Source of the DNA: Alphaproteobacteria bacterium
GTDB lineage: Bacteria > Pseudomonadota > Alphaproteobacteria > UBA9219
NCBI GenBank assembly: GCA_026225415.1
Contig: JAMFSS010000003.1
Location: forward strand, 1 to 64,000
DNA: 64,000 bases
Direction: 5' to 3'
Shown: positions 6,153 to 22,420 of the stretch, in pieces
How the letters are laid out: every line of letters starts with the position of its first letter
How positions within the stretch are numbered: the first letter of the stretch is position 1
Position numbers and translations under genes: made by a program
The notes under the pieces: generated by a model
Databases searched by the model: none
What the model was told of the DNA's origin: nothing
What the model saw: only the letters and a program-made list of their open reading frames with translations

Positions 6153-6467
6153 ATGACCGAAACCACACCCACAGAAACCGCACAAACCGAACTTAACCCC
6201 AACGAAATGCTGTCCACGTTAAAAGACGTGATGACGTCCAGCGAAAGCGACACCTCGCGCATAGCGGCCGCCAAAATCCTGCTCGAACGCTTCGCGCCAA
6301 AGAAATCCGATGAAGAACAAAAGCAACAAGCTATCGAACGTAACCACGCTCTTACAGAGGCGCGCGGACTTCTTGCCGAATTTGCCGCTTTCAAACTTGC
6401 AAGCTTTCGTGCAACGCGCGCGCTGGGTGATGCAGGCGCGACCGCAACAGATAACCCCAACGGGTGA
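6153..6467 (+). CDS. Putative small terminase subunit (GTA g1-like)
   Basis: A 104-residue acidic protein directly before the large terminase, with a helical segment (SRIAAAKILLERFAPKK) like the repeat found in small terminase or DNA-packaging proteins of GTA clusters. The ORF track begins at a TTG (6108); the ATG at 6153 is a better start. Its 3' part overlaps the terminase ORF by about 150 bp in another frame, unusually long, so either this gene or the exact terminase start may need adjusting. The role is inferred from position. Confidence 0.5.
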   Translation: MTETTPTETAQTELNPNEMLSTLKDVMTSSESDTSRIAAAKILLERFAPKKSDEEQKQQAIERNHALTEARGLLAEFAAFKLASFRATRALGDAGATATDNPNG

Positions 6468-7632
6468 TTGGCGCGTCTGGTTGATCATGGCGGGCAGGGG
6501 CTGGGGAAAAACTTTAAGTGGTGCGCAAGACATCGCGAACTTCGCGCTGTGGAACGACAATGTACGCATCGGGGTGATAGCACCCACCTATGCCGACGCG
6601 CGCGATACTTGTGTGGAGGGCGAAAGTGGCCTGCTCAGAATTATCCCGCCCAGCTGTGTGGAAAAATGGAACCGCTCGCTTGGCGAAATCTGGCTGACGA
6701 ATGGCAGCCGCATCAAACTCTTCTCTGCCGATCAACCCGAACGGTTGCGCGGTCCGCAACATCACCGCGTCTGGTGCGACGAACTGGGCGCGTGGCCAGG
6801 AACTAAAGGAGGCCGCGAAGCCTTCGACCAACTCTGGTTCGGCCTGCGTCTGGGCAACGACCCGCGCGTGATTATCACAACAACGCCAAGGAATAATGAA
6901 ATGCTCCGCGACCTTTTCAAACGCCAAAATGACGATGTGCATCTTACCCACGGACGCACGTCGGATAACGCCGATAACCTCTCGCCCCATGTCATGCAAC
7001 AATTGCAAAACCGTTATGCGGGCACGCGGTTGGGCAGGCAGGAACTGGACGCCGAATTGCTCACCGACACCGAAGGCGCCCTGTGGAACCGCGCGCAAAT
7101 CGACAAATGCCGCGTCGATACCGTGCCAGAACTTCGCCGCGTTATCGTGGCGATAGACCCGGCCATGTCACACCGCGCAACATCCGACGAAACCGGAATC
7201 ATCGCCGCCGCGCGAGGGGCCGATGGATTATTGTATGTGCTGTCAGACTGGTCGGGTCGCTTCGCGCCCGATGGCTGGGCCGAACGCGCCATCATGTTGT
7301 ATAACGATATGCGCGCGCAAATGATCGTGGCAGAAGTCAATGCCGGCGGCGAATTGGTGGAAAAAATCCTGCGCCAGAAGGCACCACAAATTTTGTTCAA
7401 ACCCGTCCGCGCTTTGCGCAACAAAGTCGAACGCGCTCTGCCGGTGGCCGCACTGTACGAACAAGGCCGCGTCCGTCATGTCGGTGCGCTATCGTTATTG
7501 GAAGACCAGATGTGCCGTTTTACATCGGATGGCAGCATGGAAAAATCCCCCGACCGCGTCGATGCCCTGGTCTGGGCACTCACCGAACTCTCCGAAACCA
7601 ATCGCGGCGAACCCAAAATCCGGTTTTTATAG
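6310..7632 (+). CDS. Phage/GTA large terminase subunit
   Basis: A 440-residue packaging motor. The ATPase domain has GDWRVWLIMAGRGWGKT (Walker A) and VWCDELGAW (Walker B). The RNase H-like nuclease domain has VAIDPAMS, VAEVNAGGE and SPDRVDALVWAL with its acidic residues. The N-terminal ARPQQITPTGDW is typical of GTA-type terminases. It loads DNA into preformed heads through the portal. All key residues appear intact, so packaging could be functional. First large gene of the phage-like cluster. Confidence 0.93.
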   Translation: MKNKSNKLSNVTTLLQRRADFLPNLPLSNLQAFVQRARWVMQARPQQITPTGDWRVWLIMAGRGWGKTLSGAQDIANFALWNDNVRIGVIAPTYADARDTCVEGESGLLRIIPPSCVEKWNRSLGEIWLTNGSRIKLFSADQPERLRGPQHHRVWCDELGAWPGTKGGREAFDQLWFGLRLGNDPRVIITTTPRNNEMLRDLFKRQNDDVHLTHGRTSDNADNLSPHVMQQLQNRYAGTRLGRQELDAELLTDTEGALWNRAQIDKCRVDTVPELRRVIVAIDPAMSHRATSDETGIIAAARGADGLLYVLSDWSGRFAPDGWAERAIMLYNDMRAQMIVAEVNAGGELVEKILRQKAPQILFKPVRALRNKVERALPVAALYEQGRVRHVGALSLLEDQMCRFTSDGSMEKSPDRVDALVWALTELSETNRGEPKIRFL

Positions 7633-7641
7633 GCCGCCAAA

Positions 7642-8310
7642 ATGTTCGAAAAAGAAAGAAAAGAATTGCATGAAAAGGCCGTCAACTTGGCTTTTGCCTT
7701 CTATCTTCGCAAAGGTCGTATTCTACCGATCATCAACGAAGTCGCAGCGCTAACGGCATCGCCGGACATTTTTGCCAAGGCTTTGCACAAATTTAACCAA
7801 AATCATGATCCGGTTAATGGACAATTTACCTCTGGGGCAAGTGGCAGCGCAGCAGACAGCAATACCTCTTCAAGAAAAAAAGATCCAGGCGCAATTCCGG
7901 TTAAGCTAAGTGATGATTCAACTGTTATAAACCCGAAAACAAACCAGCCCTTATTAATGCCTGCTGATGTATCTTTATCGAATAATGCAAAAACAGGCGA
8001 AAATATGCGTTTTCTACCTTCTGTGTTGACTGGGGATATTATGTCGCCGGATAAAGAGCGAGCGATGATCGATCAATTAGATACAAACCGCCCCATGGAC
8101 TATCAACGTCTTTACGACGATGGAAAAATAAACAAAACTTACATCGATTTTGGCAATTATAATTATGGCGTTGTGGCCGCTGCTGCTGGATATACCCTAC
8201 CGCAGGCAATGCTGGCCGCTGCATTTCACAATCGTTCGGTGGGTAACCCCGATACTTCAGGCACATGGGGAACAGATTCCAGCGAATCCACCTTTATCCC
8301 GATGGGTTAA
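7642..8310 (+). CDS. Cargo toxin A: shared N-terminal domain plus type-44-like toxin
   Basis: A 222-residue protein with three parts. Residues 1-45 form the helical domain shared with the ORFs at 16059 and 18367 (LHEKAVNLAFAFYLRKGRIL). Residues 50-65 are the linker KFNQNHDPVNGQFTSG. The C-terminus has IDFGNYNYGVVAAAAGY, which resembles the NFNYGATG core of polymorphic toxin type 44; that match is from memory. Type 44 domains are tips of Rhs/T6SS/T7SS polymorphic toxins. The frame stays open for 12 codons after the TAA, so the toxin may be truncated. The putative membrane immunity gene follows 44 bp later. AT-richer than the terminase. Confidence 0.68.
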   Translation: MFEKERKELHEKAVNLAFAFYLRKGRILPIINEVAALTASPDIFAKALHKFNQNHDPVNGQFTSGASGSAADSNTSSRKKDPGAIPVKLSDDSTVINPKTNQPLLMPADVSLSNNAKTGENMRFLPSVLTGDIMSPDKERAMIDQLDTNRPMDYQRLYDDGKINKTYIDFGNYNYGVVAAAAGYTLPQAMLAAAFHNRSVGNPDTSGTWGTDSSESTFIPMG

Positions 8311-8354
8311 CAGGATTATACTTCAGGTCTCATTGCGAAACATAACTAAGCCTT

Positions 8355-8840
8355 ATGAAAAAATTCAAACTTCCTCTTCTGCTGACAACCCTCTGGTTGC
8401 TTCTTGGCCAGTCCCTAGTTTGCATCTTTGGGGGCGCTTTTTATGAACTTGGCTGTTTGATTTATTGGTACGGCATTAAAGGATTCGAAGGGCATCCAGC
8501 TATTGAAACAATAGAAATGATCGTTGCGTTGATAATCTTTCAGGTCGTGGTCGTTCATATTGCTCGCGCTGTTTCTATAATCTTCACTATAACCGCTGCA
8601 ATTGCTTCACTCGCAATCTGGAAAAAAGTCAAATTAGATTTTTTCCTTCTATTCACGCCAATCTCCGCCTTACTTCTTTGGTATGGCTACGACCATTTCG
8701 TGCCCAGTTACAGACTTATGAATGATGCGAGGCCTCCCTACCAACACGGCCTGACATGGGCGCGTTTCGGCATCGCATGGCTGGTCGAAACTATCATCGC
8801 GATTGGCTACTGGCTACCGCTACGAAAAACGAAAATATAG
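8355..8840 (+). CDS. Four-helix membrane protein, putative immunity to toxin A
   Basis: A 161-residue integral membrane protein with about four hydrophobic helices (near residues 7-30, 52-75, 78-97, 100-115, and one more close to 138-154). It has no phage structural resemblance. Its place directly after a toxin-like ORF, its small size and its AT-rich composition suggest an immunity protein, which in membrane form would fit a toxin acting on the envelope. An unknown holin-like role cannot be excluded. No ribosome site is strong; the ATG follows taagcctt. Confidence 0.5.
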   Translation: MKKFKLPLLLTTLWLLLGQSLVCIFGGAFYELGCLIYWYGIKGFEGHPAIETIEMIVALIIFQVVVVHIARAVSIIFTITAAIASLAIWKKVKLDFFLLFTPISALLLWYGYDHFVPSYRLMNDARPPYQHGLTWARFGIAWLVETIIAIGYWLPLRKTKI

Positions 8841-8853
8841 AACTGCCGGTGCC

Positions 8854-8909
8854 GTCATCCCCGCGACGCGTCCGCCAAAGCCTTGGCGTAGGCGGAAGGC
8901 GGGGATCCA
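8854..8909. repeat. Composite GGATC palindrome with inserted RLRQGFGG-type core
   Basis: The ends, gtcatccccgcga and ggcggggatcca, match the simple palindrome at 43886-43911. Between them lies a second palindromic core (cgtccgccaaagccttggcgtaggcgg). Read on the minus strand, this core encodes RLRQGFGG, a peptide typical of dispersed palindromic repeats. A related core in inverted orientation lies in the portal gene 100 bp on. Confidence 0.7.
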
Positions 8910-8956
8910 TCTTTCTTCATTAACAACATTTCCTCGTCCAACACAGGTGACCCCAC

Positions 8957-10696
8957 ATGAGATTCCCCAATCTCCTGAACGCATTCGCACGCCCCGCCTT
9001 CGCCAAGGCTTCGGGGGGCAAGGCATCACATAAGCCGCCGGAAACTAAAACCTCCCGCGCCGGCCCGATGATAGCCTGGTCGAATGTCGGCCAACCGCAA
9101 TGGACACCACGGCGTTTAACGAACTTGGCCGAAGAAGGCTTCCGCAAAAACACCATCGCCTATCGTTGCGTCATGCAAATCGCCACAGCCGCCGCCGCCA
9201 TTCCGTGGGTGCTGTATGATGATCAAGGCAACGAACTCACCACCCACCCAATGCTTGACATCCTCGCGCATCCCAATCCGTTGCAGGACGGCGTCAGTTT
9301 TATGGAATCCGTCTATGCCAATTTGCAAATTTTCGGCAACGCCTATGTGGAGGCGATCCGCCCGCATGATGATGCCGCGCCGGTCGAACTTTACGCGCTC
9401 CGCCCCGACCGCATGAAAATCGTGCCGGGGCCCGCCGGCCTGCCGCAAGCCTACCAATACAGCGTCAACGGCCAAACCACCACATGGCCGTCCGACCCGC
9501 TCACGGGCGAAAGCAACATCCTGCACCTCAAACAATTCCACCCGCTCGATGATTGGTACGGCCTTGCGCCAATGGAAGCGGCACTGCAAAGCATCGATCA
9601 ACATAACGCGTCGGGCGCATGGAATCAGGCCTTGCTCAATCAGGGCGCGCGCCCGTCCGGCGCCTTGGTCTACTCACCCAAAGACGGCGGCCCCGCGACA
9701 TTGACCGATGACCAAATCCAACGCCTGCGCGAAGAAATGGGGCAATTGTACCAAGGCGACCGCAACGCAGGCAGGCCCTTGATATTGGAAGGCGGGCTCG
9801 ACTGGCGCGAAATGTCGCTGTCCCCCAAAGATATGGATTGGCTGTCGGGCCGCAACAACGCCGCGCGCGATATCGCGCTGGCCTTCGGCGTGCCCGCGCA
9901 ACTTATCGGCCTGCCCGACTCGCAAACCTATGCCAATTTTGAACAAGCCCGACTTGCGTTCTACGAAGAAACCATCCTGCCGCAAATCACCCGCGTCATC
10001 GCGGGCGTCGATCATTGGCTCTGCCCGATGTATCGCGCCCGGCCAGAACTGGATTTCGACCCCGACAGCATCAGCGCGCTAACAGAAAAACGCCAGGCGC
10101 AATGGCAAAAAATTACCGAAGCCAGTTTTTTAACCTTGAACGAAAAACGCCAAGCCGCAGGCTATGCGGAAATCGAAGGCGGCGACACAATTCAAACCAA
10201 CACCAAGGAGGCTGGACATCCCGCGCCTTTTTTTAACCCCAAATTCAACCCCAACCACGACCCCGAAAACGGCCAATTCACTTCGGGCCCGGGTGGCGAT
10301 GCCGATAACGATGATGATACAGATAACACCGATACCGCTGACTCAGATGATGATGACCAACCGCAACAGCCTGCTTCACAGCCTATACAAATGGTGCAAG
10401 AAGTTCCGCCTATCTTTGAAAATTTGCCAGCGGAATTAGAAAGCCCTTCTTCTGGGACACCTGTGCCAGCACCCAATTTTGAGACACCCACGAATCCACC
10501 TCAAATGCCCCCTGAAAATATTCCAGATGGTTGGCGTGTTAGAGAAATGCCGCCGACTGAACAATATCCAAATGGCTATTGGAAATTAGAGAAACCTATG
10601 GATAATGGTGGTTGGCAACCTATGAATCCTTCTACTATGCGGCCAGGAACAAGACCCGAAACACATGTGCCATTTCCTGCAGATATGACAGCTTAA
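8957..10696 (+). CDS. HK97-family portal protein with C-terminal toxin-like extension
   Basis: A 579-residue fusion. Residues about 35-420 are an HK97-type phage portal (PMLDILAHPNP, GLAPMEAALQSI, FGVPAQLIGLPDSQTYANFEQA), the dodecameric DNA gate at the head vertex. The usual end is followed by the linker KFNPNHDPENGQFTSG (residues 429-444), an Asp/Pro-rich disordered stretch, then a roughly 60-residue tip (NGYWKLEKP, then PGTRPETHVPFP). The tip resembles short polymorphic-toxin ends with G-Y-W and H-x-P-x-P. Residues 10-22 derive from an in-frame palindromic repeat. A DUF6188-like immunity gene follows within 20 bp. The portal call is firm; the toxin call is inference. Confidence 0.85.
   Translation: MRFPNLLNAFARPAFAKASGGKASHKPPETKTSRAGPMIAWSNVGQPQWTPRRLTNLAEEGFRKNTIAYRCVMQIATAAAAIPWVLYDDQGNELTTHPMLDILAHPNPLQDGVSFMESVYANLQIFGNAYVEAIRPHDDAAPVELYALRPDRMKIVPGPAGLPQAYQYSVNGQTTTWPSDPLTGESNILHLKQFHPLDDWYGLAPMEAALQSIDQHNASGAWNQALLNQGARPSGALVYSPKDGGPATLTDDQIQRLREEMGQLYQGDRNAGRPLILEGGLDWREMSLSPKDMDWLSGRNNAARDIALAFGVPAQLIGLPDSQTYANFEQARLAFYEETILPQITRVIAGVDHWLCPMYRARPELDFDPDSISALTEKRQAQWQKITEASFLTLNEKRQAAGYAEIEGGDTIQTNTKEAGHPAPFFNPKFNPNHDPENGQFTSGPGGDADNDDDTDNTDTADSDDDDQPQQPASQPIQMVQEVPPIFENLPAELESPSSGTPVPAPNFETPTNPPQMPPENIPDGWRVREMPPTEQYPNGYWKLEKPMDNGGWQPMNPSTMRPGTRPETHVPFPADMTA
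8991..9019. repeat. Palindromic repeat core inside the portal N-terminus
   Basis: The 25-bp core cccgccttcgccaaggcttcggggg matches the reverse complement of the core at 8868-8893 at about 20 of 25 positions. In the portal frame it reads PAFAKASGGKAS; in another frame it gives RLRQGFGGQ. It extends the coding sequence without breaking the frame. Confidence 0.65.
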
Positions 10697-10713
10697 GAAA
10701 CAAAGGTGAAAAA

Positions 10714-11067
10714 ATGTACGGGTTACCAGAAAACTTTGATGCTTCCGTTTTGGTTGGATTGACTGTTGAAATGGTCTGTTTTACGGGCAACCAAATATCA
10801 CTGCATTTTGATGTTCAAACCAAAATCGTGGTCGAAGCGATGCTGGAATATCAATCTGCCAGTGGACAAGTGCAAAAATTAGTACCCCCAGTTTCTTCTA
10901 CCAATCTCATGCAACTTATTGGTCACAAAATAACACAGGCTTTGGGCCAAGCTGATGGAACATTATTTTTATTGTTTGATAATGATGACAGTGTGAGATG
11001 TTGTGATGTATCATCCAATTACGAGTCTTATCAGATTGTTCGGAGCGATAAGACCATTATAATCTAA
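10714..11067 (+). CDS. DUF6188-like protein, putative immunity to the portal toxin tip
   Basis: A 117-residue protein starting 17 bp after the portal stop, with a ggtgaaa site. Its pattern (GLTVEMVCFTGNQISLHF, LMQLIGHKITQALGQADGTL, SNYESYQIV) matches what I remember of DUF6188, a small beta-rich family found next to polymorphic toxins. The ORF track starts in the portal gene, but the ATG at 10714 is the likely start. First gene of a five-gene array of small AT-rich genes. Confidence 0.68.
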   Translation: MYGLPENFDASVLVGLTVEMVCFTGNQISLHFDVQTKIVVEAMLEYQSASGQVQKLVPPVSSTNLMQLIGHKITQALGQADGTLFLLFDNDDSVRCCDVSSNYESYQIVRSDKTIII

Positions 11068-11114
11068 CGGAAATATGCGGTTTTGATACATTTGTTTCCA
11101 ACGGAGACAGCATA

Positions 11115-11456
11115 ATGGCTAAAATCAGAAAAGCAGAATTTGAAGACCAAACTCTTATTGAATTTTCTCTAGCAAAGGGAAATATTCATTTAGCCATTTC
11201 CTGTTGGAACGAAGACGCAAACACATCAAAAATTGTGTCGGTTGATTTTGTTGATTGCAAAAAAATTAAAATCAATAATAAAGATAACGACGCAATAGTA
11301 ATGCTTTCGGATGATGGAGAGATTATCCATTTTGAAATAGAAAATAACAAAATGCTTTTAATAGTTATTTGGCATAGCTTGCAGAACAAGGGTAACGATA
11401 CTACAATTTACAAGTTTGATTTTCGGGATATAGTAACCATCAAAAGTGGTGCATGA
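11115..11456 (+). CDS. Small protein of an immunity-like array
   Basis: A 113-residue, beta-strand-rich cytosolic protein with high Asn/Lys/Ile content. I do not recognise the family. The ATG has an acggagacag site. It overlaps the next gene by 4 bp (ATGA), so they are coupled. Strongly AT-rich codon use compared with the capsid and portal genes points to separate acquisition. Immunity function is inferred only from position in the array. Confidence 0.5.
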   Translation: MAKIRKAEFEDQTLIEFSLAKGNIHLAISCWNEDANTSKIVSVDFVDCKKIKINNKDNDAIVMLSDDGEIIHFEIENNKMLLIVIWHSLQNKGNDTTIYKFDFRDIVTIKSGA

Positions 11457-11803
11457 ACGATCTTTATCAAAAAGCGCTTCAACGACTTCTGCAACACAGC
11501 AATGGTGATGATGTTGGGCTATGGCAAGTCATAAATAGAATTAACGATGTTCTGGGCATTAAAAATTACAAAATACCTTCCGCCAAAATGGAAGAATTTT
11601 GGCAAGCCATGTCATATCTTGTCACGGGCATGTTGCAGGGCGGGCTTTTAGCGACCAATCCCTTAAAAGATGGAAGCTATATAGTCTGGCCTCAACAGGA
11701 TCCCGAACAGGTTCTTGCGCATATCAAAGAAAAATGGGCTAGTCTGAATGGCGCATTTCCCGATGTCGGTTTTATCGTTTGGTTCCATAAAGTCAAAAAC
11801 TGA
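11453..11803 (+). CDS. Small protein of an immunity-like array
   Basis: A 116-residue mostly helical protein, translationally coupled to its upstream neighbour by a 4-bp overlap. It ends in FPDVGFIVWFHKVKN. No signal peptide or membrane helix. No family recognised. Size, composition and tandem placement fit an immunity gene. It may protect against a toxin variant not present in this window. Confidence 0.5.
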   Translation: MNDLYQKALQRLLQHSNGDDVGLWQVINRINDVLGIKNYKIPSAKMEEFWQAMSYLVTGMLQGGLLATNPLKDGSYIVWPQQDPEQVLAHIKEKWASLNGAFPDVGFIVWFHKVKN

Positions 11804-11815
11804 TCGGTCTGTGTG

Positions 11816-12166
11816 ATGAGTAAAATTATACATCGAGAAGAATGGTACACGTTTTTGCCGCCCGATCTTTTGCAAGGCGTACATAAATATGACAACGAAT
11901 GGGTCTGGTGCCGAGAACAAGCATTACCTATTATGGATTGGTTAAATGCAAATGGTCATGTCGTCACCGATATTGAGACTTGGATGCCAACATTGCCGGG
12001 GCCAACGCCTTTAATCAATAATTGGAACCAAAATCGCGCTTATCCTTCACCACCCTTTCCGATGTTAGCAAGAAATTTTATTGCAACATTCACCCCAGAT
12101 TCTTCGGAGCAAATAACGGGTTTTGCAGTTGCTTTCAATATCTCAGCAATGAAATCCAAGCCATAG
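11816..12166 (+). CDS. Small protein of an immunity-like array
   Basis: A 116-residue soluble protein, Trp-rich in its first half (EEWYTFLPPD, NEWVWCRE, WLNANGH). A GTG codon directly before the ATG could also start it. Family not recognised. It lies 12 bp after the previous array gene. Immunity role is inferred from position, size and AT-rich composition only. Confidence 0.48.
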   Translation: MSKIIHREEWYTFLPPDLLQGVHKYDNEWVWCREQALPIMDWLNANGHVVTDIETWMPTLPGPTPLINNWNQNRAYPSPPFPMLARNFIATFTPDSSEQITGFAVAFNISAMKSKP

Positions 12167-12173
12167 GCGAAAG

Positions 12174-12449
12174 ATGAAACATGTCTGTCCTGTTTGCGGA
12201 TATTCAGATCTGACCGAACCGCCTTGCTATAATAATGATCCCTTAAATAGTCCTTCGCACGAAATATGTCCTTCTTGTGGATTTCAATTTGGTTATAGTG
12301 ATTTGAACTCCGGATTTACTTTTAGTGAATGGCGCCAGAAATGGATAACCGAAGGTGCGCCGTGGTGCGGAAAAGGCACTAAAACACCAAAAGATTGGAA
12401 CCCTGTTCAACAGCTGGAAAATATCGGCGTAAAACTTAGCCAATCATAA
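12174..12449 (+). CDS. Zinc-ribbon CPxCG protein of the immunity-like array
   Basis: A 91-residue protein with two zinc-binding CxxC pairs (CPVCGYSDL and CPSCGFQFGYSD), then WRQKWITEGAPWC and PKDWNPVQQLENI. This combination recurs in a small family that, as I recall, often sits in toxin-immunity arrays of many phyla. Last of the five array genes and followed by an intrinsic terminator. Its target is unknown. Confidence 0.6.
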   Translation: MKHVCPVCGYSDLTEPPCYNNDPLNSPSHEICPSCGFQFGYSDLNSGFTFSEWRQKWITEGAPWCGKGTKTPKDWNPVQQLENIGVKLSQS

Positions 12450-12525
12450 CCAAAAAATAGAGAGAAAATTCTTTGGCATCTGCCTCGTAAACAAAGAAAT
12501 AATTTTCGCACAAACGAAAACCCCC

Positions 12526-12553
12526 AAAGGCCGGAAACCCCGGCCTTTTTTTA
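12526..12553 (+). terminator. Intrinsic terminator after the immunity-like array
   Basis: Nine-bp perfect stem aaaggccgg/ccggccttt with a 5-nt loop, followed by a run of T. It separates the AT-rich array from the prohead protease gene, so the array may form its own unit and the downstream head genes need readthrough or their own promoter. Confidence 0.8.
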
Positions 12554-12583
12554 TACCCAAAACCTAAAACCAAAAAGGCCAAC

Positions 12584-13156
12584 ATGGATGTAAAACACAT
12601 GTCCTGCGCGCTGCGTGTCAAAACACTCGGCGGCGACGGGATCTTCACGGGTTATGCCAGCGTGTTTGGCGAACTCGACCAACAAAACGAAATCGTCGCG
12701 GCGGGCGCCTTTGCCCGCACTTTGTCCAAATGGCGGCGGCAAAACCGCACGCCCGCGCTGCTGTGGATGCATGACCCCACGCAACCGATCGGCATCTGGC
12801 AGAGCCTGCGCGAAGATTCCTCCGGCCTTATGGTCGAAGGACGCTTGGCGCTCCGCACGCAAAAAGGCGCGGAAGCGTACGAGCTTCTGAAGCTCGGCGC
12901 GCTCACCGGCCTGTCGATTGGCTACCGCGTCGTGTCCAGCCGCATCGACGCCAAACAAAAAGCCCGCATCCTGACGGATGTGGATTTGTTTGAAATATCG
13001 CTGGTCACTTTTCCCGCCAACGAAGCGGCGCGGGTCAGTGAAGTAAAGAAGAGAGAAGGGGAGAAAGTGGGGGTTAGAGAAAGACTCGATGCATCCGCGC
13101 TTTCCCAAGCTGCCAATCGTTTGCGTCAGGCCGCAAGAATCCTGACAGAAAAATGA
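12584..13156 (+). CDS. HK97-family prohead protease
   Basis: A 190-residue serine protease of peptidase family S78/U35 that trims the capsid N-terminus during head maturation. GYASVFGELDQQNEIV marks the N-terminus. The catalytic His lies in LLWMHDPTQPIG and the Ser in TGLSIGY; DLFEISLVTFPANEAA is the family end. The last 40 residues are charged and are partly encoded by one arm of a purine-rich inverted repeat. Its position between portal and capsid is standard. Confidence 0.92.
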   Translation: MDVKHMSCALRVKTLGGDGIFTGYASVFGELDQQNEIVAAGAFARTLSKWRRQNRTPALLWMHDPTQPIGIWQSLREDSSGLMVEGRLALRTQKGAEAYELLKLGALTGLSIGYRVVSSRIDAKQKARILTDVDLFEISLVTFPANEAARVSEVKKREGEKVGVRERLDASALSQAANRLRQAARILTEK

Positions 13157-13193
13157 CCCTCTAATCCCCTTCTATCTCTAACCCCTAACTTTC
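13061..13193. repeat. Purine/pyrimidine inverted repeat P1
   Basis: The arm gagaaagtgggggttagaga (13061-13080) pairs imperfectly with tctctaacccctaactttc (13175-13193), about 95 bp apart. The left arm is inside the protease gene and the right arm lies just before the capsid ribosome site. It is one of four such junction repeats in the window. Confidence 0.55.
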
Positions 13194-13209
13194 AACAACG
13201 GAGAACATA

Positions 13210-14433
13210 ATGATCGAACCCAACGAACTCCGCTCCGCCACCGATACGCTGGCGCGGGCCTTCGAAGAATATAAAAGCGTCAATGACCGGCGTTTAAACG
13301 ATATCGAACATCGCGGAACGTCAGACGTGCTGGATAACGACCAGCTGTCGCGCATGGATAAATCCATCAACCGTCTGCAAGACGATATCACCCATCTGAA
13401 AACATCGCTGCGCCGCCCGTCCAAAACCGGAACCGGCATGGTGGACACGGACAGCACCCATAAAAAAGCGTTCCTGAAATATATCGCCAAAGGTTTTGAT
13501 AACGACCTGGCCGCGATGGACACGAAAGCGCTCGAAGTCATCAACAATGCCGAAGGCGGTTATATGGTGCCGCCGGAACTGTCCGACCGCATCGTGACGC
13601 GCCAATTCGACACCACGCCCATGCGCCAGATCGCGACCGTGATGACAATCTCATCCGAAGCAGTCGAAATGCTGCGCGACACCAACGACCCCGTCGCGCA
13701 ATGGATATCCGAACTGGGCGTACCAACCGACACAGCTGATAACGGCATTGGCCGCATCCGCATCCCTGTGCATGAACTCTATGCGCAACCCAAGGCGACG
13801 CAAAAATTGCTGGATGATGCCTTTATTAATGTCGAAGAATGGTTGATCAATAAAATCTCGGCCAAATTCTCGCGCGCCGAAAACAACGCGTTTGTGGTCG
13901 GCGACGGCATCGGCATGCCGCGCGGCTTCACCAGCTATACGGCGCAAGCCGTATCGGACGCGACCCGTTCATGGGGCGTGCTGCAATATGTGCCAACCGG
14001 TGCCACGGGTGCCTTCGCATCCACCAACCCTGCCGATTGCTTGTTCGATCTGATGCACCAATTACGCGTCGGTTATCACCCCGATGCCACATGGGTTATG
14101 CCGCGTGCCGTCGCCGATATGATCCGCAAGTTCAAGGAAAATACGACACAGGCTTACATCTGGCAACCGGGTCTGCAACAAGGTCAACCGGCAACCTTGT
14201 TGGGCTTCCCCGTCACGCTTGGCGAAGATATGCCAACGGTGGCATCGGGCAGCTACTCGCTGGCGTTCGGCAGCTTCAAAGAAGGCTACACAATTGTCGA
14301 CCGTATAGGGATGCGTATTTTGCGTGACCCTTACACCGGCGCGCCCTTCATCAAATTCCGTTGCACCAAACGCACCGGCGGCGATGTCGTGAATTTCGAA
14401 GCGATCAAATTGCTGAGCTTCTCGGCAAGCTAA
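13210..14433 (+). CDS. HK97-type major capsid protein
   Basis: A 407-residue phage capsid protein. Residues 1-75 are a charged coiled-coil delta (scaffold) region that the prohead protease would remove. The mature part has NNAEGGYMVPPELSDRI, RGFTSY, the WVMPRAVADMIRK helix and TLLGFPVT, as in the HK97 fold. A cggagaac site lies before the ATG. All blocks are present, so a head shell can probably form. Confidence 0.93.
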   Translation: MIEPNELRSATDTLARAFEEYKSVNDRRLNDIEHRGTSDVLDNDQLSRMDKSINRLQDDITHLKTSLRRPSKTGTGMVDTDSTHKKAFLKYIAKGFDNDLAAMDTKALEVINNAEGGYMVPPELSDRIVTRQFDTTPMRQIATVMTISSEAVEMLRDTNDPVAQWISELGVPTDTADNGIGRIRIPVHELYAQPKATQKLLDDAFINVEEWLINKISAKFSRAENNAFVVGDGIGMPRGFTSYTAQAVSDATRSWGVLQYVPTGATGAFASTNPADCLFDLMHQLRVGYHPDATWVMPRAVADMIRKFKENTTQAYIWQPGLQQGQPATLLGFPVTLGEDMPTVASGSYSLAFGSFKEGYTIVDRIGMRILRDPYTGAPFIKFRCTKRTGGDVVNFEAIKLLSFSAS

Positions 14434-14435
14434 GC

Positions 14436-14526
14436 GCGAGCGAAGGAGAGAAAGAACGGGATCAGAGACAAAAACCAAGAACGGTTTTTGCTCCCCTTTG
14501 CTCTTCTTCCCTCTTTCTCTGCTCGC
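14436..14526. repeat. Purine/pyrimidine inverted repeat P2
   Basis: A purine-rich arm starting gcgagcgaaggagagaaag and a pyrimidine-rich arm ending ccctctttctctgctcgc form a long imperfect hairpin with about 40-nt arms. It fills the space between the capsid gene and the next ribosome site. There is no T-run directly after it, so it is not a standard terminator. Confidence 0.6.
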
Positions 14527-14562
14527 CTTTTTTCCCTCATTCTTTTTCCAGGAGACATCCCC

Positions 14563-14970
14563 ATGGCTATCCGCGATCTTTTGCGTTCTCAATTCGTCAC
14601 CCAATCCCTTGCGCCCGCCGCGCGTGTCAACGGCACCGCGACCGGCTCCACCGTCGATCTGCGCGGTTATGACGGCGCCGCCATCATCGTCACTTTCGGC
14701 GCTTACACCGACGGCACACACACGCCTTCGGTCAACCAATCTTCCGATGGCGTTACATGGGTACCTTGCGTCTATGGCACCGATCTCGACGCCACCACCA
14801 ATCTGGCAGCGGTCAGCAGCAGCGCGGGCGCGAACACCACCCAGCAAATCGGCTATATCGGCAGCCTGCGTTATTTACAGGTGGTTATAACGACGACCGG
14901 CGCAACCACAGGCGCGCTTTCCACCGCATCGGTTATCGCGGGCTACCCACGCAATGCGCCAACGCAGTAA
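14563..14970 (+). CDS. Putative head decoration or minor structural protein
   Basis: A 135-residue Thr/Ala/Gly-rich beta protein (RGYDGAAIIVTFGAYTDG, SLRYLQVVITT) placed directly after the capsid gene. In HK97-type phages this position often holds a capsid decoration protein. The ATG at 14563 has an aggag site; the ORF track start lies within the pyrimidine-rich repeat and is rejected. The family is not certain, and it could also be a tail-surface protein. Confidence 0.6.
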   Translation: MAIRDLLRSQFVTQSLAPAARVNGTATGSTVDLRGYDGAAIIVTFGAYTDGTHTPSVNQSSDGVTWVPCVYGTDLDATTNLAAVSSSAGANTTQQIGYIGSLRYLQVVITTTGATTGALSTASVIAGYPRNAPTQ

Positions 14971-14980
14971 GTAAGAAAAA

Positions 14981-15015
14981 CTTAGGGGGCTTACTCGAAA
15001 GAGCAGCCCCCTAAG
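14981..15015. terminator. Hairpin between opposing genes
   Basis: Perfect 11-bp arms cttagggggct/agccccctaag with a 13-nt loop, lying between the end of the 14563 gene and the end of the minus-strand gene at 15038. The flanks are aaaaa on the left and a weak T-rich stretch on the right, so it may end transcription from both sides. Confidence 0.6.
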
Positions 15016-15037
15016 ATTTGGTATTTTTATAAGAAAA

Positions 15038-15310
15038 TTAAAGTGACAGAACTTTGAGCGTTCCGACCGGTGTATAGGCATAATTTCGATGATCGGTTTC
15101 ATCTGGATTAACGATAGCTTTAACAATTCCCTCTTTTCCCACCTGCAAAGAGCCGCGTATGGGATCTTGCGCGATGATATGTTTGCTTAGAATTTCTTGG
15201 CCAAAAACTTTAGCCATCAAATTCATGAGATGTTCGCCCGTAACCGCGCCTGCCTGAGCCTTAAAAAGGATAACAGCGGCAGAGTTGGGCGTAAATTCAA
15301 ATAAAGCCAT
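15038..15310 (-). CDS. Small hypothetical protein, antisense to the structural genes
   Basis: A 90-residue soluble protein with an agagg site 5 nt before its ATG. No family recognised. It reads against the head-tail genes on both sides. It is one of two lone minus-strand genes of unknown role set inside the structural cluster, with no signal peptide and AT-rich composition. Confidence 0.55.
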   Translation of the reverse strand: MALFEFTPNSAAVILFKAQAGAVTGEHLMNLMAKVFGQEILSKHIIAQDPIRGSLQVGKEGIVKAIVNPDETDHRNYAYTPVGTLKVLSL

Positions 15311-15388
15311 AAAAACCTCTGTTTTTTAAATTATTAATAGGGATTTTTACCATATGCGCTCTTTGCACACAATAAAGGATTTACTTTC

Positions 15389-16057
15389 ATGACATCCTTC
15401 TCATTAACCATGCCGCCATCCGTCGAACCTGTTTTGCTGGCTGATGCCAAACAACAGGCACGCATCGACACAACCGCCGATGATGCTTTGGTAACCGCGC
15501 TCATCACCGGCGCGCGGCAATGGGCGGAACAATATACGGGCCGCGCTTTCGTGACCCAGACATGGCAGATGGTCGTGGATTTATGGCCGGGCGCTGTTGG
15601 CAAATGGTGGGACGGCGAACGCCAAGGCCCTGTCACGGGTCTTGATGATGTGAATTACATAAGCCTGCCCCGCGCGCCATTGCAAAGCGTAACGTCAGTG
15701 AATTATTACGACAACAGCGACAACGCGACCCTGTGGTCGGCCTGTAATTATTTTGTCGATACCGTCCGTGCGCCCGGGCGCATCGCGCTTCGTTCGGGTT
15801 CTGTGTGGCCAATTCCATCGCGCCTGACCAACGGCATCGTCATCACCTATGTCTGCGGTTACGGCGATGACGGCACATCGGTGCCGGAGCCGATTAAAAC
15901 CGCCATCCGCCAACTGGTCGCGCATTGGTACGAACATCGCGGCGATGCCGCGGCGGCGGCCAGCTCGCGCGGTACAATGATTACATCAGCTATTCCTGTG
16001 CCGTTAGTGATCGAAGCTTTGTTAACGCCTTATAGAATTCGCTATTCTGGAGTTTGA
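15389..16057 (+). CDS. Head-tail connector protein (gp6/phiE125 gp8-like)
   Basis: A 222-residue adaptor of the phage gp6-like group. The N-terminus has VLLADAKQQARID and the helical DDALVTALITGARQWAEQYTGR typical of that family, then a beta-rich middle and a C-terminal helix (PIKTAIRQLVAHWYEHR). In GTA clusters this is gene 6, the ring below the portal. The order capsid to connector is kept although two extra genes lie between. Confidence 0.87.
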   Translation: MTSFSLTMPPSVEPVLLADAKQQARIDTTADDALVTALITGARQWAEQYTGRAFVTQTWQMVVDLWPGAVGKWWDGERQGPVTGLDDVNYISLPRAPLQSVTSVNYYDNSDNATLWSACNYFVDTVRAPGRIALRSGSVWPIPSRLTNGIVITYVCGYGDDGTSVPEPIKTAIRQLVAHWYEHRGDAAAAASSRGTMITSAIPVPLVIEALLTPYRIRYSGV

Positions 16058-16058
16058 A

Positions 16059-16652
16059 ATGAGTGGAGTAAGCAGACAAACACTCAACAATAAAGCAAGA
16101 GTTCTTGTTCGTTGTTACTATAAATACAAAGGATTTGTTCCTCGGCTTATTACTGAAATTATTGAAGCCACAAAATATAGTCCTGACCAACCGCGCGTTC
16201 CAGGAGGCAATGGAGTTTACAGTGGCAGATGGACAAGCGGAGATTTTAACGTTGATGGGGCTGTTAATCGGTTAAATCAAAGAACCGCTGGCCGGCAATC
16301 TGGTGGGCGATGCGCACAATACGTTAGAGATGCGCTTGATCAGGGCGGCGGCCTTAATGTAAAGCCACCTGCGAATTCTATTTCAGCCAAGGATTACGGC
16401 TCGTCTCTTGAGAATGCAGGGTTTAGTCCGGTTGTTAGCCAAACAAATAGTCCAGCCCCGTATCCTGCGCCAGAATATCAACCCCAGAAAGGTGATGTGG
16501 CGGTCATTCAGCCTGTTACTGGTCACCCGGATGGGCATATGGAAATGTATAATGGGCAAAATTGGGTCTCTGATTTTCAGCAAAGGGATTTTTGGCCGGG
16601 GAATGCCTATCGCAGCAAACAGCCAAGTTATACTATTTACCGACATTCTTAA
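16059..16652 (+). CDS. Cargo toxin B: shared N-terminal domain plus peptidoglycan amidase
   Basis: A 197-residue protein starting 1 bp after the connector stop with a ctggagt site. Residues 1-45 are the shared helical domain (LNNKARVLVRCYYKYKGFVP). The linker variant is YSPDQPRVPGGNG, then GRWTSG. The rest is a CHAP/NlpC-P60-like amidase domain: a catalytic Cys in GRCAQYVRDAL, His residues in GHPDGHMEMYNG, then WVSDF and a PSYTIYR end. Similar domains are T6SS amidase effectors that cut cell-wall peptides. The stop overlaps that of the convergent exported immunity candidate. Confidence 0.78.
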   Translation: MSGVSRQTLNNKARVLVRCYYKYKGFVPRLITEIIEATKYSPDQPRVPGGNGVYSGRWTSGDFNVDGAVNRLNQRTAGRQSGGRCAQYVRDALDQGGGLNVKPPANSISAKDYGSSLENAGFSPVVSQTNSPAPYPAPEYQPQKGDVAVIQPVTGHPDGHMEMYNGQNWVSDFQQRDFWPGNAYRSKQPSYTIYRHS

Positions 16653-17155
16653 GGAAAAGCACATTCAACATTATTAAGTTTCCAGCCCGTATGTGTTTTG
16701 ACTAACGTATAAACGGCGAAATTTCTTTCTCGATCGTATGAGAAAGAGATCGTGGCATTATAGGGATTTTCTTTTTCTGTGTGATAAAAATAGGTGCCCA
16801 AATTATCCTGCGCACAAGTAATAGGGTTGTAATCAATACCACATAATTCACCCTCTATATAATGGCCGCCGCAATCACGTTGTACCAGCTGCCTTTCTTT
16901 ATAAGACATGCGAGCCAAGAATGAAGATGTGAAATAGGAAGCAAATTGTTGATCTTTTGTTGATTGGCGTTTTGGAATATTCAAAACAAAATCGGACATG
17001 TCCGTATCAGCATCCGCGAACTTCAAAAGGGCATCCAGCTGGGATTCAGCGGCTGTAGAAGCTGCATTATAAGTTTCTTGCGCCTCTGCATTCTGTACAC
17101 AGATGCTCAGGAAGAACACCAAAACGATAATATTTAAACAGTCGCGCAAAAACAT
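16649..17155 (-). CDS. Exported protein, putative periplasmic immunity to amidase toxin B
   Basis: A 168-residue protein with a Sec signal peptide (MFLRDCLNIIVLVFFLSICV, cut near NAEA). The mature part has four Cys that could form disulfides (RDCGG, ELCGID, ITCAQD, VECAF). I do not recognise the family. Amidase effectors are neutralised in the periplasm, so an exported partner next to toxin B fits. The two genes are convergent and share 4 bp at their stops. The ORF track extends far upstream; the ATG at 17155 is chosen for the signal peptide and the preceding ggaaatggg. Confidence 0.65.
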   Translation of the reverse strand: MFLRDCLNIIVLVFFLSICVQNAEAQETYNAASTAAESQLDALLKFADADTDMSDFVLNIPKRQSTKDQQFASYFTSSFLARMSYKERQLVQRDCGGHYIEGELCGIDYNPITCAQDNLGTYFYHTEKENPYNATISFSYDRERNFAVYTLVKTHTGWKLNNVECAFP

Positions 17156-17209
17156 AGGCCCATTTCCACATGCAGACAATTTCCTATAATTTAGCATATC
17201 AGGTAGATA

Positions 17210-17539
17210 ATGAAAACCGGTGATCTTCGCAAACAACTCGCGCTGCAATCCGAACAATCCACGCCCGATGGCGCGGGCGGATATGCGCTGGCATGGGTCA
17301 CGCTCGCCACATTCTGGGGCGATATCACGCCTTTGTCGGGCAATGAAATTTATACCTCCGGTCATCTGGAAGGGCATGTGACGCATAAAATAACCACGCG
17401 CTGGCGCACCGATCCGGCAATCACAACCGATATGCGTCTTGTCTATACCAACCGCGCCTTCAATATCCGCGCCGTTCTTAATGACGGCGAAAATAACCAA
17501 TGGGCGCACATTCTGGTGGAAGAAGGGGTGACGCAATGA
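17210..17539 (+). CDS. Head closure / head-tail joining protein (GTA g7-like)
   Basis: A 109-residue protein of the phage_H_T_join (head-tail adaptor) type: MKTGDLRKQLALQSEQSTPDGAGGYALAWVT is the usual start (L-R-x-x-ltlq...D-GG-W), followed by a compact beta barrel. It plugs the head after packaging. The ATG has an aggtag site. It overlaps the next gene by 4 bp. Confidence 0.87.
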   Translation: MKTGDLRKQLALQSEQSTPDGAGGYALAWVTLATFWGDITPLSGNEIYTSGHLEGHVTHKITTRWRTDPAITTDMRLVYTNRAFNIRAVLNDGENNQWAHILVEEGVTQ

Positions 17540-17946
17540 CCGACACCCTCTTCGCCACGCAACAATCCATTGCGGCAGTGCTGGCCGCCAGCGCGGAAAT
17601 GCAATCCATCATGGGCGCAACACCGCCTGTGTATGATCATGTGCCGCCGGGTGCCGTCTTTCCCTACATCGTTTTCGGCCCTACAAACCTTGCGCCCTAT
17701 GACACCAAAACCGAAATCGGTTTTGAACAAATCATCACGATTAATATCTGGTCGCGCTATCGCGGCGGCAAGGAAACCCGCGATATTTTTCAGGCGGTCT
17801 ATGACACGCTGCACCGCGCCACCTTCACAATAACCGGCCAAGTATTTTTATCGTGCGAGTTCCACAGTGCCGATTTTGGCCTGGATTCCGACGGCCTCAC
17901 CTATCACGCCGCCGTGCGTTTCAGCATCCTCACGCAAAGTACATGA
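17536..17946 (+). CDS. DUF3168 tail completion protein (GTA g8-like)
   Basis: A 136-residue DUF3168 protein, the tail terminator/completion ring of HK97-type phages and GTAs. Helical start (LFATQQSIAAVLAASAEM), YDHVPPGAVFPYIVFG, then IWSRYRGGKETRDIFQAVYDTLH. Coupled to the joining protein. In a standard GTA cluster the next gene would be the major tail protein, which is absent here. Confidence 0.87.
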   Translation: MTDTLFATQQSIAAVLAASAEMQSIMGATPPVYDHVPPGAVFPYIVFGPTNLAPYDTKTEIGFEQIITINIWSRYRGGKETRDIFQAVYDTLHRATFTITGQVFLSCEFHSADFGLDSDGLTYHAAVRFSILTQST

Positions 17947-17947
17947 C

Positions 17948-18355
17948 ATGAAAAAACATTTTTCTATCGACCAACTTTCAACCGCAACCCTGCGGCAAAC
18001 GCAAAGCCAGTCTGCCATGACGCGCCGCGACATCAATAAATTGCGCGACAGCATTTCCGGCCTGTCGCGCTCCATCCACGCGCCGGTTATCCGGCCTCTG
18101 CGCGGCGTTATCAAAGGCTCACGCACAAACCACAGCCCCTTGCTGTTCGCCGAAGCCGCCATCCTGACGCGCTATGCGATCAACAGCTATAACCAGAGTG
18201 GCAGTAGCAGTGGCGACGATGACGATGATGATGACTACTATTCGGATAATTCCACAAATAAAACAAGTAGCGCCGATTATCGTTTTTATAAAAGCGAAGG
18301 ACAGCTGGCCGGTAACACGCTCGGCAGATTGATACTGGGGCAACGTATCCGTTAA
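17948..18355 (+). CDS. Hypothetical phage protein, possible tape-measure remnant
   Basis: A 135-residue protein with a helical N-terminus (RDINKLRDSISGLSRSIH), an Ala-rich hydrophobic segment (SPLLFAEAAILTRYAINSY), then a Ser/Asp run of low complexity (seven Asp in a row) and a basic end. It is in the slot where a GTA would carry g9 to g11 (tail tube, chaperone, tape measure) but is much too short for a tape measure and does not look like a tail tube. Starts 1 bp after the DUF3168 stop. Confidence 0.5.
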   Translation: MKKHFSIDQLSTATLRQTQSQSAMTRRDINKLRDSISGLSRSIHAPVIRPLRGVIKGSRTNHSPLLFAEAAILTRYAINSYNQSGSSSGDDDDDDDYYSDNSTNKTSSADYRFYKSEGQLAGNTLGRLILGQRIR

Positions 18356-18366
18356 GTGAGGGATAT

Positions 18367-18933
18367 ATGACTTTGCAGACAAAGAGACAACAAATTCATA
18401 ACCGCGCTCGTGAATTGGCGACGCTATATTACAACAGCCGCGGCTATGTGCCTTTGCAGTTGAAACAAATCATAGAAGAGACCTCTTATGGTAAGGCAAG
18501 CTATAAATTTAACCCTAATCATGATCCAAGTAATGGCCAATTTACCTCTGGCTCTTCTACAGGAGTTATTGATGATCCACCGATACAACCGGTTTACCCA
18601 ATAGAAACAATTTTTGCTGGCTTAGCAGCTGGGCGTGTCTTTTCAATCATTAGAGCCATGGGTGGGGTGGACGAGGAGGCTTTGGCTGCTTCCGGCAGCA
18701 CTTATAATAGTGTTGCTAAATCCATCGAAGATTATCTTGGTGGAATACCAGACCGCGTCTTTCCTAATGAGGCGGGAGATACGATTATGATGAAAGATAA
18801 CAAGAAAATACGTTTCGATATTAATAATCCTGGAAACGATGATCCCCATTTTCATATCCAAGAACAAAATGAAAGTGGTAATTGGGTGGACGCAGGCGAC
18901 CAACATAGATATTATTTTCGAGATCAGGAATAA
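18367..18933 (+). CDS. Cargo toxin C: shared N-terminal domain plus H-rich toxin-like domain
   Basis: A 188-residue protein. The shared helical domain (IHNRARELATLYYNSRGYVP) is followed by linker KFNPNHDPSNGQFTSG at about residues 47-62. The linker DNA matches that of toxin A at 41 of 48 positions. The C-terminal domain ends KIRFDINNPGNDDPHFHIQE and HRYYFRDQE, with an HxH pair and a late His-Arg-Tyr like nuclease-type polymorphic toxin tips. I cannot name the toxin type. A small gene follows 4 bp after its stop. AT-rich. Confidence 0.68.
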   Translation: MTLQTKRQQIHNRARELATLYYNSRGYVPLQLKQIIEETSYGKASYKFNPNHDPSNGQFTSGSSTGVIDDPPIQPVYPIETIFAGLAAGRVFSIIRAMGGVDEEALAASGSTYNSVAKSIEDYLGGIPDRVFPNEAGDTIMMKDNKKIRFDINNPGNDDPHFHIQEQNESGNWVDAGDQHRYYFRDQE

Positions 18934-18937
18934 ATAA

Positions 18938-19333
18938 ATGAAACAACTCGTTCAAATCAAAAAAATGACCTCTTTGCGTTTCGTTATCCAATATGACGAG
19001 AAAGCCGGATATTATCTATACGCTTATTTGGGCGACTTTAATCTCACAGATGATTTGCAGGATAATTTCACTCAAATTGCAAATCAGGCGTTTCAAGAAT
19101 ATGACATCCCTATTCAGTCTTGGGTTCAAACACCAGCAGACCCGACAAAGTGGACTACATCTTATATGCCAATCCAGCCTCTTTCTTTTGTAATTGAACA
19201 GGAAGCAGAGCAAATAAATTTAGTTATTTATCGAGGCCAGAATCCAATATATCAGCGAAGCAAGAAAACAATTGAGGATGTAAAAAAATTTGCTTCTGAA
19301 AAATTTGATATACAATCAGAAGCTTGGGGTTAG
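18938..19333 (+). CDS. Small cytosolic protein, putative immunity to toxin C
   Basis: A 131-residue soluble protein, rich in Gln and aromatic residues, starting 4 bp after the toxin C stop. No signal peptide or membrane helix, so it would act in the cytosol, which would fit a nuclease toxin. No family recognised. The immunity role comes from position and the AT-rich composition shared with the toxin gene. Confidence 0.55.
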   Translation: MKQLVQIKKMTSLRFVIQYDEKAGYYLYAYLGDFNLTDDLQDNFTQIANQAFQEYDIPIQSWVQTPADPTKWTTSYMPIQPLSFVIEQEAEQINLVIYRGQNPIYQRSKKTIEDVKKFASEKFDIQSEAWG

Positions 19334-19946: not shown

Positions 19947-20573
19947 ATGTCCTTCGATGAAATCGAAATTCCTTTGCGCGTCGGTTTCGGCTCCAAAGGC
20001 GGGCCGAATTTTTCGACCGAAATAATCGTGATCGACAGCGGTTACGAACGCCGCAACCAGAACTGGGCACAGGCGCGGCGCGTTTACGATGCGCGTTCGG
20101 GCGTGCGCTCCGCCACCGATGCTGCCGGTTTGCTCAATTTCTTTCATGCCCGCGCCGGCCGCGCGCGCGGGTTCCGGTTAAAGGATTGGAGCGATTATTC
20201 AAGCGCCGCAGATAATATCTCAACACCCGCATTCGCCGACCAGACAATCGCCACAGGCGACGGCGCAACGGTAACGTTTCAACTGGTAAAAAATTACAGC
20301 AGCGGCGGCATAACCCACACGCGCGCCATCAACAAACCCGTGGCGGGCAGCCTCGTTATCGGCGTGAATGGAACGCCGCTTTCAAGCGGGTGGAGCATAG
20401 ACATAACAACAGGTTTGATGACATTCGCAACCGCGCCCGCATCGGGGCAAAATATCACGGCGGGATTTTTGTTTGATGTGCCGGTGCGCTTCGATACCGA
20501 CTATCTGTCGCTGTCGGCGGAAAATTACGCGGCCTATCAAACCGATATCCCGATTGTCGAATTGCGGGTTTAA
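19947..20573 (+). CDS. DUF2460 distal tail protein (GTA g12-like)
   Basis: A 208-residue DUF2460/TIGR02217 protein, the distal tail ring below the tail tube in GTAs. FDEIEIPLRVGFGSKGGP, the YERRNQNWAQARRVYDA block and FHARAGRARGFRLKDWSDY are diagnostic. Its usual upstream partners (tail tube and tape measure) are missing, and the toxin C cassette lies there instead. Confidence 0.92.
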   Translation: MSFDEIEIPLRVGFGSKGGPNFSTEIIVIDSGYERRNQNWAQARRVYDARSGVRSATDAAGLLNFFHARAGRARGFRLKDWSDYSSAADNISTPAFADQTIATGDGATVTFQLVKNYSSGGITHTRAINKPVAGSLVIGVNGTPLSSGWSIDITTGLMTFATAPASGQNITAGFLFDVPVRFDTDYLSLSAENYAAYQTDIPIVELRV

Positions 20574-20887: not shown

Positions 20888-20987
20888 AACCTGTCCTTAT
20901 ATTTCGCGCTTTGTGACGTTTGTTATCACGAAATTTCCTGCCGCCAAAGCCGAACAATAGTTTCATCGGTAAAATAGGTTAATTTGC

Positions 20988-21830: not shown

Positions 21831-21893
21831 AAAAGCGCGATGTTCGACTCAACATCCGGATTTTTCGCGTCTTAAACGGCAAATGATTTTCTT

Positions 21894-22295: not shown

Positions 22296-22300
22296 TAGAA

Positions 22301-22394: not shown

Positions 22395-22420
22395 TTCCTT
22401 TCTCTTGCCCCCTCCTTCAC

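Follow-up and report, generated by a model that had tools for sequence, protein, structure and literature searches.

What do three toxin-like genes with unrelated C-termini do inside a cluster of phage head and tail genes, and why do they begin alike? The question is raised by the first 64,000 nucleotides of contig JAMFSS010000003.1 (assembly GCA_026225415.1), referred to here as the window, in which the genes of toxins A, B and C lie between positions 7642 and 18933. Our answer, to which we assign a probability of about two in three, is that the locus is a gene transfer agent (GTA) cluster of the Rhodobacter capsulatus type (RcGTA) in a bacterium of the order Micavibrionales (the order being read from the names of its portal relatives), armed with antibacterial polymorphic-toxin cassettes. 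In the window and in related loci, cited by L numbers (genomes by G numbers), the toxin-like proteins are modular, are paired with partner genes by gene order, swap their C-termini, recur in GTA clusters, and are in some cases fused to the portal protein.

A shared N-terminal domain and linker

An earlier note on this DNA had described the layout of polymorphic toxins in three open reading frames (ORFs), with one N-terminal pattern and linker followed by unlike C-terminal parts, set among head and tail genes. The ORFs are there, A at 7642-8310 (222 amino acids), B at 16059-16652 (197) and C at 18367-18933 (188), and the layout stands. The constant elements are:

7642..7788 (+): N-domain of toxin A, with two helices predicted; matched by profile A1 at E 1.7e-25, and shuffle test
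7789..7836 (+): toxin A linker KFNQNHDPVNGQFTSG; ORF and linker DNA pattern
10241..10288 (+): portal linker KFNPNHDPENGQFTSG; ORF and linker DNA pattern
16059..16172 (+): N-domain of toxin B; matched by profile A1 at E 3.9e-19
16173..16241 (+): toxin B linker KYSPDQPRVPGGNGVYSGRWTSG; ORF reading
18367..18504 (+): N-domain of toxin C; matched by profile A1 at E 4.6e-28
18505..18552 (+): toxin C linker KFNPNHDPSNGQFTSG; ORF and linker DNA pattern

The N-domain is a module of about 45 residues with two predicted helices, and its homology among A, B and C exceeds chance even with the linker removed: against 5000 shuffles the helical parts gave z scores of 6.5 (A/B), 6.5 (A/C) and 14.9 (B/C), the real score being reached by at most 1 of the 5000. 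The C-terminal parts gave z scores of 0.1-0.7 in the same kind of test, which included the portal tail. When residues 1-65 of C were searched against their own genome, A (E 7.7e-10), B (1.4e-6) and the portal (3.1e-5, through the linker alone) were found. The linker DNA pattern occurs at exactly three sites in the 2.02-Mb genome, in A, in C and in the portal gene. Since the portal (8957-10696) carries the linker and about 135 further residues, we count it as the fourth member of the set. The portal linker and tail, the partner genes (among them a secreted one on the opposite strand for B) and the GTA-like nature of the cluster go beyond the earlier note.

A search for a phage origin of the N-domain, by tblastn against 50,697 phage records, returned either nothing or four weak matches at E 1.

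The cluster resembles RcGTA

The head-tail genes follow the order of the R. capsulatus GTA, from the large terminase (terL) through portal, protease, HK97 capsid, adaptor, closure, terminator, DUF2460, DUF2163 and NlpC/P60 to a megatron-like protein whose C-terminal family is Rcc01698 (PHROG and Pfam assignments). A DUF2793-like homologue also counts among the RcGTA-type genes of the locus.

6310..7632 (+): terminase large subunit (GTA g2-like); PHROG terL matches to 2e-44; dN/dS 0.10-0.15 against congeners
8957..10240 (+): portal protein core; Pfam Phage_portal 1.1e-85, TIGR01537 2e-64
12584..13156 (+): head maturation protease; PHROG 80, 1e-52
13210..14433 (+): HK97-type major capsid protein; PHROG 10, 2e-69
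15389..16057 (+): head-tail adaptor (g6-like); PHROG 442, 2.5e-31
17210..17946 (+): head closure (g7-like) and tail terminator (g8-like); Pfam Phage_HCP 4.5e-24, Tail_completion_gp17 3.5e-24
19947..25831 (+): homologues of GTA g12-g15, that is DUF2460, DUF2163 hub, NlpC/P60 and megatron-like Rcc01698; Pfam
26409..28140 (+): lysis cassette of lysozyme, holin-like and Rz/Rz1-like genes; ORFs, order conserved in relatives, roles as read from the sequences

In a scan of named genomes the closest portal matches came from Micavibrio and other alphaproteobacterial metagenome-assembled genomes (MAGs), followed at about 50% identity by Rhodopseudomonas, Afipia, Odyssella and Asticcacaulis. Relatives from different families share the flanks yggS-mltG-HAD-cca-ORF3580 or pheA, which marks the same chromosomal neighbourhood. 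Core GTA genes are under purifying selection, with a ratio of nonsynonymous to synonymous substitution rates (dN/dS) of 0.10-0.19, and no integrase or replication module is visible among the cluster ORFs. Because of the shared flanks, the dN/dS values and the missing integrase and replication module we call the cluster GTA-like and not a prophage. Judged by its genes, it is domesticated and vertically inherited. An ordinary prophage was considered and ruled out by the conserved chromosomal site, the purifying selection and the absent integrase.

The tail is unusual. The major tail protein (g9, PF06199) was found above cut-off in none of the searched genomes of the window's family. It is present in the five f2 genomes and in G029; sister families keep it. 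Nor is there a tape measure between g8 and g12 in the window (17946-19947) or in L056, L066, L069 and L071, and in relatives the interval leaves no space for either gene. Despite the missing tail tube and tape measure the window's family retains head, connector, hub, megatron and lysis genes. Since both tail components are missing, a normal tail should not be assumed, and the particle of this family may be tailless or stubby.

Portals fused to toxins

The Pfam domain of the portal ends at residue 400, after which come the linker and the extra residues. Behind the gene stands a row of small ORFs.

10289..10696 (+): portal C-terminal toxin-like tail; GC 58.8% ahead of the linker and 47.8% after it; no family match
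10714..11067 (+): candidate immunity gene for the portal tail (pImm1); in L056 a same-tailed portal is followed directly by a homologue (40%, 4e-31)
11115..12449 (+): four small cytosolic immunity-like ORFs (pImm2-5); GC 32-42%

Both the tail and the gene downstream of it recur in the portal locus of a congener (L056). In L046 and L066, homologues of pImm2, pImm3 and pImm5 follow N-domain toxins or other portals with toxin tails. A structure model of the portal (mean pLDDT 56, low confidence) has a folded core and a disordered linker region and shows nothing else.

In L063 (2759-4582; L062 is nearly identical) one protein of 607 amino acids combines a phage portal domain (residues 66-399) with a colicin E5 ribonuclease domain (531-602; Pfam 5.8e-9, above cut-off). 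In L049 and L051 it is a free N-domain that carries a domain of the same colicin E5 family. Two GTA-like portal genes with differing tails occur in a single genome (G304), HNH-like in L153 (8126-9994) versus one ending in tetratricopeptide repeats in L152 (6878-8977). Portals with still other tails were found in L066 and in the viral contigs L195 and L197. In two head maturation proteases (L087 8058-8960, L105 11700-12461) the linker forms the end of the C-terminus, which looks like the remnant of a lost toxin fusion.

The linker on portals and on the ends of head proteases gives weight to the idea that the N-domain loads its toxins into the head. It also bears on an alternative in which the N-domain docks outside the head, on tail tip, hub or fibres, so that the particle works like a tailocin or a type VI secretion system (T6SS) spike. 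Several insertions among g12-g15 and the likeness of the amidase-type effectors to T6SS cargo suit such a particle, but head genes are interrupted by insertions no less often, and the portal C-termini of this family point into the head. We judge surface or tail-borne toxins improbable.

The toxins and their partners

7837..8310 (+): toxin A C-terminal toxin domain, Ntox44-like; Pfam PF15607, E 7.5e-4, 20.3 bits, under the curated cut-off of 24
8355..8840 (+): candidate immunity A, a membrane protein with at least two strongly hydrophobic segments; position, GC 44.7%
16242..16652 (+): toxin B peptidoglycan-amidase domain (T6SS Tae type); PDB 4hz9_A, E 4.7e-25 over residues 80-196
16649..17155 (-): candidate immunity B, with signal-peptide-like N-terminus; convergent with toxin B
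18553..18933 (+): toxin C segment IDDPPIxPVYPIE plus hydrophobic stretch, then a putative beta-rich toxin domain; shared by the L050 and L055 proteins
18938..19333 (+): candidate immunity C (cytosolic); in L050 and L055 the same toxin is immediately followed by a homologue

Family support is strong for B and weak for A; in relatives colicin E5 and RNase A domains pass the cut-off. The alignment of toxin B with 4hz9_A conserves GRCAxYVR and GHMxxYxG, which by sequence indicates the amidase fold with its catalytic Cys and His, and the C-terminus is thus a T6SS-type peptidoglycan amidase in predicted activity. PDB 4HZ9 comprises Tae3, a type VI amidase, and its immunity protein; its file carries only the name 'putative cytoplasmic protein'. 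In Rahnella a domain homologous to the toxin B amidase adjoins vgrG. Among the cluster ORFs and in their family scans, the part of the genome searched for them, there were no T6SS genes. Immunity B has a homologue (30% identity, 4e-13) beside the same toxin in a Micavibrio locus (L048/L077), where it is lipoprotein-like; against solved structures it gave chance antibody matches only.

Toxin B itself has no signal peptide. This weighs on a second alternative, in which the pairs are intracellular addiction or abortive modules that act in the producer, stabilizing the GTA cluster or limiting phage, and the N-domain is unconnected with the particle. The pairs are indeed accessory, AT-rich and inserted between core genes, and orphan immunity genes are common. 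Yet the partner of toxin B has the signal peptide that the amidase lacks, and because a cytosolic toxin-antitoxin pair needs no exported immunity, such a pair fits poorly. The portal fusions moreover link toxins to the particle, and the N-domain is mostly confined to GTA loci. Addiction is in our estimate an unlikely account.

A third alternative takes the amidase and muramidase-like proteins for ordinary particle lysins serving entry or release, and the remaining toxins for decaying morons. Phages do carry virion-associated lysins, and some copies are broken: the portal tail of L046 appears to be out of frame after its hydrophobic segment, and L054 has an internal stop. However, NlpC/P60 g14, lysozyme, holin and spanins are encoded in the cluster anyway, and neither the partner genes nor the RNase and colicin E5 domains fit a lysin role, so that we regard this account as very unlikely.

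The C-terminus of toxin C recurs behind the N-domain in L050 and L055, each time with the same partner gene. Its domain had no family or structure match in Pfam and structure searches; a three-sequence AlphaFold model (mean pLDDT 51, low confidence) returned nothing with Foldseek. Against plasmids, toxin A, toxin C and the portal tail gave no match.

Distribution in relatives

The earlier note had proposed a profile search with the N-termini. We ran it, and the relatives lie mainly in phage-like clusters, which are GTA clusters; the N-termini matched no unrelated families, and matches were not restricted to places outside such clusters. Within the order there are 15 N-domain genes in 33 genomes, 12 of them in GTA loci, two outside and one undecidable at a contig end. 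A GTA cluster makes up about 1% of such a genome. Insertion points are before terL and between terL/portal, portal/protease, g6/g7, g8/g12, g12/g13 and g13/g14. The C-termini behind the N-domain vary and include curated families of bacterial toxins: colicin E5 RNase is clear, and DUF4258 and CHAP/Tae-type amidase domains are below or near the cut-off. The named relatives of the order are MAGs. In named genomes, 22 of 80 portal loci have at least one linker or profile match among their GTA genes, although some of the 80 are incomplete and a few weak matches are perhaps spurious. Duplicate contigs were counted once (L046=L069, L048=L077, L049=L072, L062=L078, L063=L079, L066=L163).

In Hyphomicrobiales GTA loci the linker stands behind a different N-domain (HQRxRWMRPDAxRWxRPDA...). 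Afipia massiliensis and others have RNase A toxins of the CdiA-CT kind (2e-14, 3e-14) with the linker in their GTA loci, and Rhodopseudomonas likewise combines the other N-domain, the same linker and RNase A toxins. Viral contigs, from GTAs or prophages, have additional N-domains ahead of this linker, and many of these genes are close to those for terminase or head proteins. The linker was also considered as a GTA-specific marker and rejected, since it was found far from GTA genes.

As a side observation, eight Hyphomicrobiales GTA clusters (L145, L121, L112, L128, L130, L119, L120, L110) each have one to several linker proteins with RWMRPDA repeats; the C-termini of these proteins are RNase A, deaminase-like or HNH-like. 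In G029 the GTA cluster is in two parts (L053, L055), with terL about 0.83 Mb from the portal cluster and an N-domain toxin beside each.

Mobility and swapping

Mean GC is 41.1% in toxin and immunity genes versus 56.5% in core GTA genes (p 1.4e-5), and the GC break inside the portal gene coincides with the linker. The most direct trace of exchange is in L077, a Micavibrio MAG, where two neighbouring toxin genes share a 302-bp block of 98% identical DNA that spans exactly their N-domain and linker, while they differ in C-terminus, partner gene and upstream DNA. From this we take the linker end for the recombination joint. The same N-terminal module thus occurs with two toxins in L077, and the colicin E5 domain both on the N-domain and on the portal. 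By gene order and homology, candidate immunity genes travel with their toxins, the partners of B and C recurring beside the same toxins.

Compartments of toxins and partners

Partners are membrane or exported proteins for A, B, the CHAP toxin of L077 and the toxin of L047, and these toxins lack the PVYPxE motif with its hydrophobic segment. That segment is present in toxin C, in DUF4258-like toxins, in the colicin E5 toxin of L049 and in the colicin E5 portal; L050 and L051 retain the hydrophobic stretch alone. The partners of C and of nuclease-like toxins look cytosolic. The pattern fits a periplasmic delivery that would be followed by self-translocation. As it comes from about 10 pairs selected after inspection, we offer this rule as a pattern to test. 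RcGTA DNA uptake requires ComEC and ComF in the recipient (PMC10883770), which is compatible with a particle that empties in the periplasm; a ComEC-family protein is encoded in the genome of the window.

A proposed mechanism

As read from the ORFs, each toxin is made of three exchangeable parts: a particle-side part (in this cluster the N-domain or else the portal, and different N-domains in further lineages), a conserved Gly/Pro-rich linker serving as recombination joint, and a variable toxin, sometimes preceded by PVYP and a hydrophobic segment. From this we infer loading, a position in the head, delivery, killing, protection and kin discrimination, in the following way. The N-domain or portal fusion would place toxins into the GTA head during assembly, and the producer would lyse by the holin, lysozyme and spanin genes of the cluster. 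The particle would bind a neighbouring cell and empty into its periplasm, where amidase-type toxins would act; nuclease-type toxins would cross the inner membrane using their hydrophobic segment. The adjoining partner gene would protect the producer, and recipients with matching immunity would survive and could retain the DNA, the others dying.

Several points weigh against this account. Its support comes from sequence, and both predicted structures are of low confidence (mean pLDDT 51 and 56). Above threshold, no toxin family matches toxin A, toxin C or the portal tail. With major tail protein and tape measure missing in the window's family, delivery through a normal tail cannot be taken for granted. 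Two N-domain genes (L052, L054) are outside GTA clusters, the linker alone also occurs in toxin-like proteins distant from GTA genes (L059, L061, L064, L065), and many GTA clusters, several of the same order among them, have no toxin. The compartment rule was spotted after the fact, on about 10 pairs.

A wider proposal, which we put forward tentatively and at slightly less than even odds, is that alphaproteobacterial GTAs are widely armed: a common linker would join swappable toxins to portal, head protease and small loading domains, and a burst would deliver DNA to immune kin and kill non-kin, while in the Micavibrio family the particle, perhaps after losing its tail tube, may now serve chiefly to carry toxins.

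Relation to known systems

Temperate phages have an established class of polymorphic toxins, the MuF toxins (PMC5576092, PMC3482391). They too have a constant head-linked N-terminal part, a variable C-terminal toxin, a gene beside portal or terminase and a proposed head loading. No MuF-type Pfam match was found in A, B, C or the portal at E up to 1. Unlike MuF toxins, those described here have a two-helix N-domain of about 45 residues, are scattered in several copies over head and tail genes, belong to a domesticated GTA, and share their linker with portal and protease. For phage effectors fused to MuF, portal or head protease, the published reading is packaging followed by injection (PMC5512222, PMC9503650). 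Those fusions, polyvalent proteins included, likewise attach effector domains (PBECR, 2H, Nudix and ART in phages) to particle proteins, but they are read as tools of phage against host, whereas here bacteriocin or contact-dependent inhibition (CDI) types such as colicin E5 occur with immunity-like genes in GTA clusters.

RcGTA-type GTAs share with the window terL, portal, protease, capsid, g6, g7, g8, g12-g15 and the DUF2793-like gene in order, the conserved site and the purifying selection; they differ in that the window cluster has toxin/immunity cassettes and its family lacks major tail protein and tape measure. T6SS Tae amidases (PDB 4HZ9) share the catalytic domain of toxin B and an exported partner protein, but toxin B stands behind the GTA N-domain and linker, with no T6SS gene seen nearby, and its partner has no detectable sequence similarity to a solved immunity protein. 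With CdiA-CT and Rhs toxins there are in common the cassette architecture, downstream immunity, orphan immunity arrays and the RNase A and colicin E5 families; here, in contrast, there is no CdiA, Rhs or VgrG, and the carriers are particle proteins.

Phage-head effectors (MuF, portal and protease fusions) are already known. The novelty lies in the GTA setting, in a small domain that is a candidate for loading, in a linker common to several carriers, and in the fusion of portals to toxins of the colicin/CDI type, accompanied by immunity genes. Our search of the open literature (subscription papers and preprints lay outside it) found no report of GTAs with toxins.

Published work regards it as unsettled what selection has maintained GTAs for a span of hundreds of millions of years (PMC10883770, PMC11841831). 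Toxin/immunity cassettes in GTA clusters would give a direct benefit by killing competitors and directing DNA to kin, a benefit testable in cultured carriers (Afipia massiliensis DSM 17498, Rhodopseudomonas). Our results suggest that the particles may kill non-kin besides carrying DNA. The N-domain with its linker would also serve as a compact tag for loading proteins into virus-like particles.

Further features of the window

An AT-rich putative lipoprotein gene (19290-19916), with no family match above cut-off, is between immunity C and g12. The gap between g12 and g13 (20570-20987) is also AT-rich (44% GC) and has a minus-strand ORF (20570-20887), possibly an orphan immunity gene. Beyond pheA, at 30176-31419, two neighbouring ORFs have type IV prepilin-like N-termini (FTLTELAIVL).

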